This document shows, piece after piece, positions 17,011-45,947 of a stretch of DNA of 64,000 nt. The stretch covers positions 1,077,132 through 1,141,131 of the forward strand of contig NZ_SJPY01000001.1 of assembly GCF_007860185.1 (NCBI RefSeq), read 5' to 3'. The notes under the pieces are model-generated. The model saw only the letters and a program-made list of their open reading frames with translations, did not search any database and was not told the DNA's origin. Numbering within the stretch: position 1 is the first letter of the stretch; each line of letters begins with the position of its first letter. Both the position numbers and the translations under genes were made by a program. The DNA is from Novipirellula aureliae (GTDB taxonomy: Bacteria > Planctomycetota > Planctomycetia > Pirellulales > Pirellulaceae).

Positions 17011-17874
17011 ATGGAAGAAGCGATTGCCAAGGCGAATACCCTCATCGAAGCGATGGGGTGGATCCGTCAATTCCGAGGCACGACAACGGTCATCAAGATC
17101 GGTGGCAGTGTTTTGGACGACGAACTAGCGCTCATGCACATTCTACTCGACGTCATCTTCATGGAGTCAGTAGGGATGCGTCCCGTGTTGTTACACGGTG
17201 GCGGCAAAGCGATCAACCGTGCTTTGGCAGAATCAGGGATCGAGCCAAACTTCAAACGAGGGCGCCGCGTCACCGACGAACCAACCCTCCAAGTCGTCGA
17301 GAAGGTACTGGCGGGCGATTTGAACATCGCGATCACCAAAGAAATTGAACGTCTCGGTGGCCGAGCGATCAACTTGTCGTTCCTCACCACCAATGTCCTG
17401 TTTGGCCAGAAATTGCCAACGCCCGAAGACGAAGACCTCGGCTATGTCGGCGAAGTCACTCGCGTCGACCGCAATGTGATTGAAGGCTTGACGTACACGG
17501 ACCAGGTCCCCGTCATGCCCTCGATGTGCGAAGGGGAGGATGGCCAGCACTACAATGTCAACGCGGATACCGCGGCGATGGCTGTCGCTCAAGCACTCGG
17601 AGCCGAGAAACTTATCTTTTTGTCAGACGTCAATGGGGTTCGCCGCGATAAAGAGGATCCCGATACCATCATCCATTCGCTGTCCTCGGACGAGGCCAGG
17701 AACTTAATCAAGACGGGCGTGATCGATTCAGGAATGATTCCCAAAGTCGAAGCCTGCTTAGAGACACTCGGTCGTGGTGTCAAAAAAGTGCATATCATCG
17801 ACGGGCGTCTACGCCATTCCTTGCTTTTGGAAATTTATACCACGAGTGGAGTGGGCACCGAGATCCACCAATAG
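17011..17874 (+). CDS. argB: Acetylglutamate kinase
   Basis: A 287-residue amino acid kinase that phosphorylates N-acetylglutamate in arginine synthesis. Motifs are [11 protein letters not shown] (phosphate binding), [36 protein letters not shown] with [12 protein letters not shown], and [26 protein letters not shown] at the C-terminus. The N-terminal helix preceding the first strand is of the arginine-sensitive type ([19 protein letters not shown]), so feedback inhibition by arginine is plausible. TGGAG stands 9 bases before the ATG. It leads the cluster argB - argD-like - argF. Confidence 0.95.
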
Positions 17875-17875
17875 C

Positions 17876-17985
17876 GTGGCACAGGCTTCTTGCCTGTGCT
17901 GCCGGAAAAGACACAAACTAGAAGTTTTCCTGAAACCCACAGGCTAGAAGGTTGCCAGAACCACAGGCTAAGAAGCCTGTGCCAC
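17876..17985. repeat. Repeat family 3 element between argB and the argD-like gene
   Basis: A 110-bp element with perfect 15-bp terminal inverted repeats, GTGGCACAGGCTTCT (17876-17890) and its complement (17971-17985). Inside are further imperfect 'cacaggct' hairpins. It starts 1 bp after the argB stop and ends 8 bp before the next ATG, so it fills the gap completely. Confidence 0.85.
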
Positions 17986-17993
17986 TGTTCAAG

Positions 17994-19199
17994 ATGCCCT
18001 CAACCAGAAAGTATGTCATGCAAGAATTACCGAAGGGTCTACATCGAACCTTGCGGGACGGTTCGCGGATCACCGACGCCGTCGCGGGTCGCGCTTCGGT
18101 GCTTGGCTTTGGCAACGAAACAATCAGCGAAGCAATTCGTCAAACGGCGTCGGGGTACCTCGGCGATGCATGCGATCTTTCGTTGCTCGAAGGCGTCCAC
18201 CGAGAGATCGACGGTGAAGATCTGCGTTTGCTCGAATCCGTTCAATCGCTGCTCGAAACAAGCGGCGAATCGTCTGCCTTCCAGCCCGAGTCGGTTTCGC
18301 TATATCCATCTGCCGACGAAGGGGTCGAATCGATGATCACGATCGCCCGAACCCAATCGGACGATTCACGCTATCGCACGATCACGCTGGCTCGAAGCGA
18401 TCATGGCCGTACGGGGATGTGTCGATCGGCCAGCGGTCGCCCTGAACTGCAAGCGAAGTTTGGCCCGATGATGGCAGGCTTTGACCATGTCGAACCTGGC
18501 GACGTGGCGGGCTTGAAATCAGTGATCGACGAATCCACAGCCGCAATCATGTTGTCACCAATCGATTTCACGGATGCTGCGAAACCAATCGATGCGGATT
18601 ATTTGCTCGAAGTTCGCCAATTGTGTGACGAGTATGATTTGATGCTATTATTCGACGAATCAAGATTATGCATCGGAGCGAGCGGTTGGCTGTTAACTTT
18701 CCAATCGATCGCCAACATTGCTGCCGATGCCGTTGCCCTCTCCGCTGGCCTGTTCGGGGGGTTGCCAGGTGGGATGCTATTGGCGTCGCCTCGTTTTACA
18801 ATGGAACGTCTGAACGGTGTAAACCGATATCCGCTGCAAGCCAATGTCGCCGCCGCCACGCTGTCAGCATTGAACGAGCATTTGTCGGCCGTCTCAACGA
18901 AGGAAGAAGCCGCCGCCTTGGCTGTAGCGATTGCCGAAAAGGTGGCTCCGTACGAGTTCATTCGTGACATCAACGCATCAGGGATGACGATTGGAATCGA
19001 AACCGATTTGCCTGCCGAATCGCTCGTCGATGCCGCTGCAAAGAACCAATTGCGGTTCGTGGCTGCGGGTGAAACTTCGGTGATGCTACAATTACCTTTA
19101 CGAATCGAGCCGAGTGAGCGCGACGCCCTGCTCGATCGACTTGCTGAAACCATGAACACAATGGAGCAAAGCCATGCAACATCTACTGACTCTGTTTGA
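17994..19199 (+). CDS. Class III aminotransferase-like protein lacking the PLP lysine (ArgD-like pseudoenzyme)
   Basis: A 401-residue protein co-linear with acetylornithine aminotransferase (ArgD). Shared landmarks are [24 protein letters not shown] (about 137-140), [23 protein letters not shown] and FDES (about 220-223). Key catalytic positions are altered. The segment that is normally TLAKGLGGG, with the Schiff-base lysine, reads ALSAGLFGG, with Ala at 18744-18746. The usual GSEANE motif reads SADEGVE, the EPIQGE motif reads SPIDFTD, and DEVQ reads DESR. It therefore should not form the internal aldimine. The frame is intact and codon use is normal, so it is not a simple pseudogene. It lies between argB and argF, where argD is expected. 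A start at 18018 is also possible. Confidence 0.82.
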
Positions 19200-20109
19200 A
19201 CTCGAACCGCACGACTTGGTTCGCATTCTCGACACATCGCTCTCGTTGAAAAACCGTCTACAAGTTGGCGACCGACCACCGATCTTGGAACGGCGTGTTC
19301 TTGCTTTGCTGTTTCAGAAACCAAGTTTGCGAACAAGGGTTAGCTTCGAAACGGGCATGGCTCAGCTCGGCGGTTCAAGTTTGTTCCTAGGTGAAGAAGT
19401 TGGCTGGGGGAAACGGGAATCAACCTCCGATTTTACTCAAGTGCTCGGCCAATTCGTCGATGCAGTGGTCTGTCGAGCTAAGCGACATGAGCACGTTGAA
19501 GCTCTCGCGAAGTTCAACGCGATGCCGATCATCAATGGCTTGACCGATCTTTGTCATCCTTGCCAAGCAATGGCCGACGTGCTGACCATGAAAGAAGCCT
19601 TTGGTGAGACCAAGGGAAGGCACTTGGTCTTCGTGGGTGATGGCAACAATGTGGCCCAGTCGTTGGCGCTGATTTCCGCAATGCTGGAAATGCGATTCAC
19701 ATTGGCATGTCCGGAGGGCTACGAAATGGATTCGGATTGGCTCGGTCAAGTAGCCAAGCGTTATCCAAATGCGCAAATCGAAACGGTCAACGATCCGAAC
19801 AAGGCGGTTGCCGATGCCGATGCAATCTACACCGACGTTTGGACGAGTATGGGCCAGGAGGCCGAGATGGCAGCACGCCGAGAAGCGTTTGCGCCCTATC
19901 AAGTCAACAAGTCATTAATGGCCGACGCACCGTCGCACACGCGAGTGCTACACTGTTTGCCAGCGGTCCGAGGCGAAGAGATTACCAACGACGTGATTGA
20001 TTCGGAGCAAAGCGTCGTCATCAACCAAGCCGGCAATCGCATGCACGCCCAAAAGGGTTTGTTGGTATGGCTATTGAATCGCGAATGGATCGACCTCAAC
20101 GTCGGCTAA
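19174..20109 (+). CDS. argF: Ornithine carbamoyltransferase
   Basis: A 311-residue carbamoyltransferase that makes citrulline from ornithine and carbamoyl phosphate. Carbamoyl-phosphate motif: [21 protein letters not shown] (about 50-70). Other motifs: [18 protein letters not shown] (HPCQ), [22 protein letters not shown], and the ornithine-site [11 protein letters not shown]. The proline and leucine in KPSLRTR (rather than STRTR) give a slightly unusual P-loop, also seen in acetylornithine-type enzymes. HCLPAVRG supports the ornithine enzyme, so the acetyl form is the main alternative. The gene overlaps the argD-like gene by 26 bp and has GGAG 8 bases before its ATG. Confidence 0.93.
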
Positions 20110-35135: not shown

Positions 35136-36512
35136 TTATCCCTTTTCCGTCACGTCGGCAATCGCTTGACAAACGATCTTTCCCACATGCTCTAATTCTT
35201 CGTCGGTTGCAGCCAACGGCGGCATCACGATCACCACATCACCGAGCGGCCGAATCCAAACGCCCAAGTCGGTTGCCCGTTTGCACACTCTAGCTCCGAC
35301 TAATTCCGCGGCGTCAAACGGCGTTTTCTTATCGCGGTCTTGGACGAGTTCGATGCCGACCATCATTCCGCGTCCGCGAATATCACCGACGTGTTGATTC
35401 TGATGGAGATTCGTAAACTCGCCACGAAGTTGCTGCGTCTTTGCTGCTAGAGCATGGATCAGATTGGTTTCTTCGAACAAGTCGATCGATGCAATTGCGG
35501 CGGCGGCGGCTAAGGGGTTGCCACCAAAGGTGTGGCCATGAAAAAACTGCTTCGATTCAGAAGTCTTTGCCAAGAAGGCTTCAAAAAGATGAGGGCGGGC
35601 AACCGTCGCTGCCATCGGCAGATAGCCGCCCGTTAAACCCTTCCCTAAGCACAAGATATCAGGCGTTACCGATTCATGCTCACAAGCAAATAATTTTCCC
35701 GTACGTCCAAACCCAGTCGCAACCTCGTCACAAATCAAAAGCACGTCGTAATCGTCGCAGAGCTTTCTCACTCGAGACAAGAAGCCGTGCGGATGCGTGA
35801 TCATTCCCGCCGCACCTTGGACGAGCGGCTCCATGACAACGGCGGCGATTGTTTCGTGATGCCGTTTCAACAGCTGCTCGACTTCATCCGCATAGGCATC
35901 GCAAGCGGTTTCGGGTGTCACGCCGGGGGGCAAGCGATAACTGCATGGCAACGGCCCTCGAATCGGACGAAACACAATCGGAGCGAACAGTTGATGAAAA
36001 TACTTAATGCCTCCGAGCGAAACCGCACCGGTTGTATCTCCATGATAGGCGAGTGACAGCGCCAAGTACTGAGTTTTATTCGGCCTCGGATGCTGTCGCT
36101 GATGCCAGTACTGGAGTGCCATTTTCAAGGCCGCTTCGACCGACGACGATCCATCACTACTAAAAAAGACGTGCCCCAGATCGCCGGGCGTGATCTCGAC
36201 AATTTTCTCGGCCAATTTTTCGGTCACATCGGCGGACATGCCCAACGTGGTGATATGAGCGACGCGGTGCAACTGTTCTTCAATCGCAGCATTGATTTTG
36301 GGATGGCGGTGCCCGTGGACGTTGCACCACAAACTCGACACGCCATCAAATACTCGGTCGCCTGACGTCGTCGTTAACCAACACCCTTCCGCTTCGGCAA
36401 TCACCAATTTTTCGTACTCCGACATTTGGGTGAAGCCCTGCCAATGAGCTGAACCGGTCAGTGTGTCGAATCGTGAGACATTCTTTTCGGGGTAGGCGGT
36501 TTGCGGAGACAT
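35136..36512 (-). CDS. bioA: Adenosylmethionine--8-amino-7-oxononanoate aminotransferase
   Basis: A 458-residue class III aminotransferase that makes 7,8-diaminopelargonate in biotin synthesis, using SAM as amino donor. Motifs: FDGVSSLWCNVHGHRHPKI, VFFSSDGSSSVEAALKMALQYW, YHGDTTGAVSLGG, LICDEVATGFGRTGKLFACE and LCLGKGLTGGYLPMAATV with the PLP lysine. WCNVHGH is diagnostic of BioA. Start ATG 36512 is chosen; the frame also extends to a TTG at 36545. No other bio gene is adjacent. Confidence 0.94.
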   Translation of the reverse strand: MSPQTAYPEKNVSRFDTLTGSAHWQGFTQMSEYEKLVIAEAEGCWLTTTSGDRVFDGVSSLWCNVHGHRHPKINAAIEEQLHRVAHITTLGMSADVTEKLAEKIVEITPGDLGHVFFSSDGSSSVEAALKMALQYWHQRQHPRPNKTQYLALSLAYHGDTTGAVSLGGIKYFHQLFAPIVFRPIRGPLPCSYRLPPGVTPETACDAYADEVEQLLKRHHETIAAVVMEPLVQGAAGMITHPHGFLSRVRKLCDDYDVLLICDEVATGFGRTGKLFACEHESVTPDILCLGKGLTGGYLPMAATVARPHLFEAFLAKTSESKQFFHGHTFGGNPLAAAAAIASIDLFEETNLIHALAAKTQQLRGEFTNLHQNQHVGDIRGRGMMVGIELVQDRDKKTPFDAAELVGARVCKRATDLGVWIRPLGDVVIVMPPLAATDEELEHVGKIVCQAIADVTEKG

Positions 36513-36779
36513 AGTCCTAAGTGGGGTTTGCAGTGAAAGTCGCAATTTAGACGGTCGCTAGTACGTGCTTAGCCAGTTAGCTTATAAACGATTGCTGAAT
36601 TTTCTTCTAGTGCTTTGTCACCGTATGATTTTAGGCTTGGCCGAATCGTGGCCGGGGCATCATGCCCCAGTATGCGGCGGCTGGAAGCCACAGCCACGAA
36701 AGATTCTTACCCTGATTCTTCGTTGAGACAAAGCTCGTCGGCGTCCCTTGAAAGAAACGCTTTGGCTCATTTACATTTC
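36513..36779. other. Intergenic gap with hairpins and a dispersed motif
   Basis: Contains a GGGGCAT/ATGCCCC palindrome (36655-36669) and, on the minus strand at 36681-36697, GTGGCTGTGGCTTCCAG, which recurs on the plus strand at 60090-60106. No gene is seen. Confidence 0.5.
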
Positions 36780-45717: not shown

Positions 45718-45947
45718 GTGGCACAGGCTTCTAGCCTGTGATTTTCTCCTTCCAGGCTTCAAGCCTATGATTTTCTCCATCCAGGCTTCAATCCTATGAT
45801 TTTCTCCATCCAGGCTTCAAACCTGTGATTTTCTCCATCCAGGCTTCAAGCCTATGATTTTCTCCATCCAGGCTTCAAGCCTATGATTTTCTCCATCCAG
45901 GCTTTAAGCCTATGATTTTCTCTTCACAGGCTAGAAGCCTGTGCCAC
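45718..45947. repeat. Repeat family 3 element with exact 29-bp tandem array, between moxR and DUF58
   Basis: Terminal inverted repeats are perfect over 23 bp, beginning GTGGCACAGGCTTCT at 45718 and ending with the complement at 45947. Inside, CAGGCT cores start at 45724, 45753, 45782, 45811, 45840, 45869, 45898 and 45927, an exact period of 29. Each core is a small hairpin (CAGGCTT...AAGCCTATG) and the linkers (ATTTTCTCCATC) are the same. The element ends 6 bp from the moxR stop codon and begins 24 bp upstream of the DUF58 ATG. Identical linkers rule out a CRISPR array. Confidence 0.92.

Follow-up and report, generated by a model that had tools for sequence, protein, structure and literature searches.

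A maintained, lysine-less relative of acetylornithine aminotransferase encoded between argB and argF in Novipirellula aureliae and other Pirellulaceae

In trypanosomatids, a catalytically dead paralogue of deoxyhypusine synthase reportedly forms a heterotetramer with the live enzyme, which is activated in this way. Another inactive relative of a metabolic enzyme is LCB1 of serine palmitoyltransferase, a protein of PLP fold-type I that belongs to the alpha-oxoamine synthase family, which is different from the class III aminotransferases. The PLP lysine is missing from LCB1, which functions as part of a heterodimer (PMC3794620), and subunits with a PLP fold that lack the lysine are to that extent already known. 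No published account of a lysine-less pseudoenzyme derived from the class III enzyme ArgD was present among the open-access literature matches listed, and the terms PLP, pyridoxal, aminotransferase and transaminase are absent, by term search, from a review on pseudoenzymes (PMC10211241). Here we describe such a protein, predicted from a 64,000-nucleotide stretch of the genome of N. aureliae, the whole of which is referred to as the window.

The gene, designated pseudo-argD, is an open reading frame of 401 codons plus a stop (Table 1). A first-pass annotation of the window had noted that its product is ArgD-like along its length, which agrees with the match of residues 14-386 to the aminotransferase class III model PF00202 (95 bits, E 5e-27; gathering score 30.5), by which the protein belongs to this class, and with the best PDB matches, the acetylornithine aminotransferases 2e54 (5e-31) and 2ord (6e-31). 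These scores are far beyond what chance would produce and establish the homology to ArgD. The ArgD model TIGR00707 gave 122.6 bits vs a cut-off of 410.05 bits, so the protein falls outside ArgD as defined by that model. An AlphaFold model based on a three-row alignment reached a pLDDT of 50.5 and was too poor for use. As annotated, the frame is intact; since argF starts at 19174 and pseudo-argD ends at 19199, the two genes overlap by 26 bp, a feature that turned out to be peculiar to this genome.

Relatives were searched for at E<=1e-32 in 241 genomes of the same family, the own genome included; members that are more diverged may have escaped this search. Fifty-four genomes matched, of which 51 carry relatives of the window gene and three (G008, G071 and G148) a canonical ArgD. 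Together with L007, from a Rubripirellula MAG (Pirellulaceae), this gives 52 sequences. None of the 51 matched stretches contains an in-frame stop. The argD position between argB and argF, recognized earlier for the window gene, is general: among the 51 loci fetched, argB lies upstream in 48/48 and argF downstream in 50/50 of those that hold them. Three stretches that were shorter than asked for (G217, G206 and G215) have no argB, which was located on other contigs. In the window, a near-palindromic repeat of the CACAGGCTTCTAGCCTGTG type occurs at 17880-17898, 45722-45740 and 45925-45943, with one copy in the gap between argB and pseudo-argD; these three places (six matches, counting both strands) compare with a mean of 0 in 100 shuffles.

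Table 1 Features of the pseudo-argD locus and related genes (window positions unless stated; residue columns from the alignment of 52 family sequences and 22 canonical ArgD)
Feature	Position	Strand	Remarks
argB (N-acetylglutamate kinase)	17011..17874	+	Upstream neighbour
Predicted lysine-less, ArgD-derived pseudoenzyme (401 aa)	17994..19199	+	Open reading frame, homology, orthologues
Ser106-Ala107-Asp108	18309..18317	+	SAD vs canonical SG(A/T); column 108 D32/E6/A2/S1/X1, 10 gaps
Asp136	18399..18401	+	Replaces Phe of FHGRT; D42/E3/Y2 of 47 rows with a letter, 5 gaps; F in 22/22 canonical ArgD
SPIDFT	18555..18572	+	Replaces EPIQGE; first column S36 Q6 A4 C3, 3 gaps, n=52
DESR	18654..18665	+	Replaces DEVQ, Asp and Glu of DE retained; Asp221 in 52/52
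Ala251 codon GCT	18744..18746	+	Schiff-base lysine position; A40 G6 S4 Q1 E1 in 52 members; K in 22/22 canonical ArgD
argF (ornithine carbamoyltransferase)	19174..20109	+	Downstream neighbour; 26 bp shared with pseudo-argD
BioA	35136-36545	-	Above NCBIfam cut-off
AT-X, class III aminotransferase	Own genome C1:462607-464025, outside window		PF00202 165 bits

The residues involved in cofactor binding and catalysis were read in an alignment of the 51 family members and L007 with 22 canonical ArgD sequences. The Schiff-base lysine is present in 0/52 family sequences vs 22/22 canonical ones, and the alanine that had been reported at this position in the window protein is thus borne out in the family alignment. 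The nearest lysines in the window protein are residues 197 and 303, and because there is none between them, a shifted alignment cannot supply one. A lysine within residues 238-264 was found in one of the 52 members (G203), upstream of position 251, with Ala at the position itself. The motif changes reported earlier were likewise confirmed: the canonical NSG(A/T)E reads PSADE in the window protein, and EPIQGE and DEVQ are altered as listed in Table 1. Residues 106-108 are presumably the former PLP-phosphate loop, and we take the Phe of FHGRT (position 136) to be the PLP-stacking residue; of the 42 sequences in which column 108 is not a gap, 36 have an acidic residue there as well as at 136. In class III enzymes, each subunit provides the Thr of TFGGNP to the phosphate site of its partner. 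This Thr is replaced by a gap in 31/52 family members and retained in four.

Other parts of the old active site are still recognizable. Asp221, presumably the partner of PLP-N1 in active relatives, is invariant, His137 is retained in 44/47 rows with a letter, and the old substrate residues are kept in part (Arg139 in 36/47, the carboxylate Arg in 28/52). These retained residues could be taken to mean that the protein is still an enzyme, with a lysine-independent PLP/PMP or a metal-dependent activity, possibly on an intermediate of the arginine pathway. We consider this very unlikely, in view of the loss of the phosphate loop, the stacking Phe, EPIQGE and mostly TFGGNP; moreover, Arg139 and the carboxylate Arg are not retained throughout, and no single new catalytic residue stands in place of the lysine. 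As far as can be judged from the alignment, pseudo-ArgD cannot work by the usual PLP mechanism and is predicted not to transaminate acetylornithine, and the earlier description of a catalytically dead aminotransferase agrees with the family sequences.

The gene is under purifying selection across the family. In 11 partly overlapping pairs the dN/dS ratio was below 1 throughout, with values of 0.07-0.29 (NG86) or 0.07-0.42 (YN00); L007 was left out of this calculation and of the trees. By NG86, the eight pairs outside genus g83 gave 0.07-0.14, and constraint was weakest in the three g83 pairs (0.17, 0.17 and 0.29), for which YN00 values reached 0.42. The closest pair (G102/G013) shows 18 differences in amino-acid-changing codons, where the synonymous rate would predict about 185. 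The neighbouring genes have ratios of 0.01-0.06 (argB, seven pairs) and 0.03-0.11 (argF, ten pairs), and when compared pair by pair, the ratio for pseudo-argD exceeds theirs by a factor of 1.3-17. Canonical ArgD has 136 columns with a conservation of 95% or more, and in only 32 of these is the residue shared by 75% or more of the pseudo-ArgD family (the list of conserved columns was confined to those with 40 or more family letters). D136, H165 and Q366 replace residues that are invariant in the 22 canonical sequences, and D338 (51/52) and C211 (48/52) are fixed at positions that vary in canonical ArgD. Constraint has thus changed and not simply been lost. A homologue of an enzyme that lacks the conserved catalytic residues yet is maintained is what is called a pseudoenzyme, and pseudo-ArgD fits this description.

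In a tree of ArgD sequences, from which 8/51 family members and 3/22 canonical ArgD were left out, the 43 pseudo-ArgD members form a single clade with support 100/100. A topology that joins the canonical ArgD of G008 to the pseudo-ArgD of genus g29 was rejected on this tree (p 0.003). In a tree of argB plus argF (7/103 rows left out), g29 was first placed beside ArgD-bearing genera with support 92; uniting the pseudo-ArgD genomes and seven g88 genomes that lack the gene in one clade gave a likelihood that was 1.87 higher (p-AU 0.54). Separate losses of the lysine in g29 and in the remaining genera are rejected on the ArgD tree at the p value given above, with the argB plus argF data being compatible with a single origin. 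A single origin of pseudo-ArgD is thus supported by the trees, in which long branches call for caution. Strain-specific decay, a sequencing error or a misalignment would be the simplest ways to explain a missing lysine, and nothing was found in favour of any of these. They can be rejected as having a negligible probability, given the presence of the gene in 51 genomes, the absence of internal stops, the clade of 43 members, and the absence of lysine between residues 197 and 303. Because the lysine is found in none of the 52 sequences, the position between argB and argF is fixed across many genera, dN/dS is low and the members form a single clade, pseudo-argD is, on sequence criteria, an old and maintained pseudoenzyme, and neither a case of strain decay nor an alignment shift. 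The proposal in the first-pass annotation that the gene is maintained thus stands, and its alternative of decay in one strain fails with the orthologues.

That annotation also considered a true ArgD encoded elsewhere in the genome. None was found in the own genome: the best match to a canonical query (E 1.7e-35) is BioA, and a second, intact canonical ArgD is rejected on this basis. The six class III proteins of the genome are BioA, HemL, a HemL-like protein, a carrier-aminotransferase-thioesterase fusion, pseudo-ArgD and a distant member designated AT-X. HemL (L002) scores above the NCBIfam cut-offs; the second, HemL-like protein (L003, own genome C13:65299-66504) scores below the HemL cut-offs. 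The fusion (L004:700-3684; own genome C1, around 545384-546358) combines phosphopantetheine carrier, class III aminotransferase and thioesterase domains. Since the genome holds ArgJ and ArgC, the acetylornithine aminotransferase step should be needed. Where the two can be aligned, AT-X and canonical ArgD have about 26% identity, and AT-X reaches the cut-off of none of the NCBIfam models among the 25 matches listed; it appears to be the most plausible replacement of ArgD in this genome.

The occurrence of the two enzymes in the 241 genomes points in the same direction. With thresholds of E<=1e-100 for canonical ArgD and E<=1e-60 for AT-X, ArgD was detected in 88 genomes, AT-X in 165, both in 29 and neither in 17, a complementarity with a Fisher p of 3e-19, uncorrected for kinship. 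The genomes are related, so that these counts are not independent, and errors occur at contig ends, as in G069, which is counted as ArgD-less (also among the 100 high-quality genomes mentioned below) and has a canonical ArgD that is cut at a contig end. Canonical ArgD was detected in 0/51 pseudo-ArgD genomes, and AT-X was found in 50/51, the exception being G197, which is 82% complete. Among 159 high-quality genomes, AT-X is present in 97/100 counted without canonical ArgD vs 24/59 with it. A class-wide sample of 397 genomes contained AT-X (E<=1e-80) in 45, all but four of which are in the family of N. aureliae. Of 20 AT-X loci counted without either form of ArgD, 16 have argB directly adjoining argF, with 18-165 nt between the aligned ends. 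The remaining loci are G069, G207, which ends at a contig edge, and G111 and G014 (contig end), which have no argF in the stretch. In two genomes with AT-X and without detected ArgD, no normal ArgB was found either, the best match being 30-33% identical within a frame of about 470 aa (G031:C152:76204-77007 and G097:C2:21908-22714).

All ten catalytic or cofactor residues that were checked in AT-X, as well as its own Thr at the TFGGNP position, are retained in 38/38 loci examined, out of 165 AT-X genomes. One AT-X gene, in an 89%-complete pseudo-ArgD genome (L197; G209 C98:6400-8900), has an in-frame TAA in its first third, due to either an error or decay, and a stop reported for the AT-X of G232 falls outside the aligned residues 13-465. 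Because no conserved neighbours were present among the seven AT-X loci compared, and no arg-linked neighbourhood was seen, the role of AT-X rests on its occurrence, from which we infer that it is probably the working acetylornithine aminotransferase. In the 29 genomes that also possess canonical ArgD, AT-X must presumably have another function or be redundant.

The presence of AT-X in almost all pseudo-ArgD genomes also brings up the idea of a heterodimer in which pseudo-ArgD would be the inactive partner and AT-X, or some other class III enzyme, the active one; the lysine-less LCB1 (PMC3794620) would be a precedent. Such an association is in our opinion quite unlikely. By search, 86 AT-X genomes have no pseudo-ArgD, and this absence was confirmed between argB and argF in the 16 of 20 loci mentioned above. 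Because AT-X occurs without pseudo-ArgD, and because TFGGNP is gone in most members (AT-X having its own Thr), a subunit role with AT-X is disfavoured.

It could further be argued that after displacement by AT-X the reading frame was kept only as an operon relic, whose translation feeds ribosomes to argF and whose protein product does little. The gene order in genus g83 is in agreement with this, as the stop codon of pseudo-argD overlaps the start of argF by 1 or 4 nt in 13/13 loci (L125, L126, L128, L130, L132-L134, L136, L138, L139, L141, L142 and L144), which suggests translational coupling with argF, and the g83 pairs are the least constrained. Furthermore, argB lies directly beside argF in other lineages from which the gene is missing. 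These include close relatives in genus g88, so pseudo-argD is not essential throughout. On the other hand, the other genera have distances to argF that range from -26 nt (in N. aureliae) to +183 nt, and these values are also the extremes for all 50 loci that include argF. There is therefore no general coupling. The purifying selection found in all 11 pairs, with the low ratios of the eight non-g83 pairs, and the new residues that became fixed across genera also argue against a protein without a role. Thus, a pure relic is possible for g83 and less so for the rest, and for the family as a whole we regard it as unlikely.

The course of events that we consider probable is that argD lost its aminotransferase function in situ after takeover by AT-X, and that it was then kept as a PLP-free pseudoenzyme. 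AT-X would have been gained and have taken over the formation of N-acetylornithine, by which ArgD was displaced. The argD gene may then have been lost in several lineages (g88; the g11/g76 group; the g62/g82/g81/g28 group) and converted to a pseudoenzyme in one, with loss of function most likely occurring once, in the ancestor of part of the family. In that case the genomes would represent a series of displacement states, with ArgD alone, ArgD plus AT-X, AT-X plus lysine-less ArgD, and finally AT-X without any argD, argB and argF being adjacent; in this series a core pathway gene has turned into a maintained pseudoenzyme within its own operon. It is predicted that the label acetylornithine aminotransferase, when attached to pseudo-argD, would be wrong in its clade, and AT-X is a testable candidate for the real enzyme.

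Concerning its present role, pseudo-ArgD may be a binding protein that regulates, or serves as a scaffold for, a protein of the arginine pathway; this role is favoured over other ones, with less confidence than the role proposed for AT-X. A partnership with ArgB or ArgF, as proposed earlier, is possible. The vacated cofactor pocket could be closed or re-used by the newly conserved acids Asp108 and Asp136, beside the old Asp221. These acids would repel the phosphate of PLP, and they may replace it structurally or bind a cation. A more specific variant, in which pseudo-ArgD became a PLP-free ligand sensor whose acidic pocket mimics phosphate, or binds arginine, ornithine or a metal, and which reports to ArgB or ArgF, is doubtful but conceivable. 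Nineteen members have more than 60 residues before the last 400, if the first Met of each open frame is taken as the predicted start; the extension is acidic in 14 (114-328 residues, 39-54% D+E) and not in five. Acidic N-terminal extensions occur in genera g14 and g84, in one member of g29, and in L007 (L007:4206-5000), where the sequence is visibly repetitive. They would suit an interaction protein.

In comparison with known systems, pseudo-ArgD resembles ArgD (TIGR00707; 2e54/2ord) in ancestry and length, in its place between argB and argF, in the class III match of residues 14-386, and in having Asp221 and the HG motif. It differs in lacking the PLP lysine, in its altered phosphate loop, EPIQGE and TFGGNP, in scoring far under the ArgD cut-off, in its faster evolution and in having conserved residues of its own. 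AT-X is a member of the same superfamily (PF00202), but its catalytic residues are intact, its occurrence is complementary to that of canonical ArgD, and it has no arg-linked neighbourhood that was seen in the loci compared. The dead paralogue of deoxyhypusine synthase and pseudo-ArgD both derive from metabolic enzymes and have been retained by selection in a form that is catalytically dead, for pseudo-ArgD as judged from sequence, whereas in that system the live paralogue is present and canonical ArgD was not found alongside pseudo-ArgD. LCB1 also lacks the lysine (PMC3794620). Like pseudo-ArgD it is a descendant of a PLP-fold enzyme that is kept by selection, but LCB1 has an active partner, whereas the only candidate partner of this type for pseudo-ArgD is AT-X, which also occurs without it.
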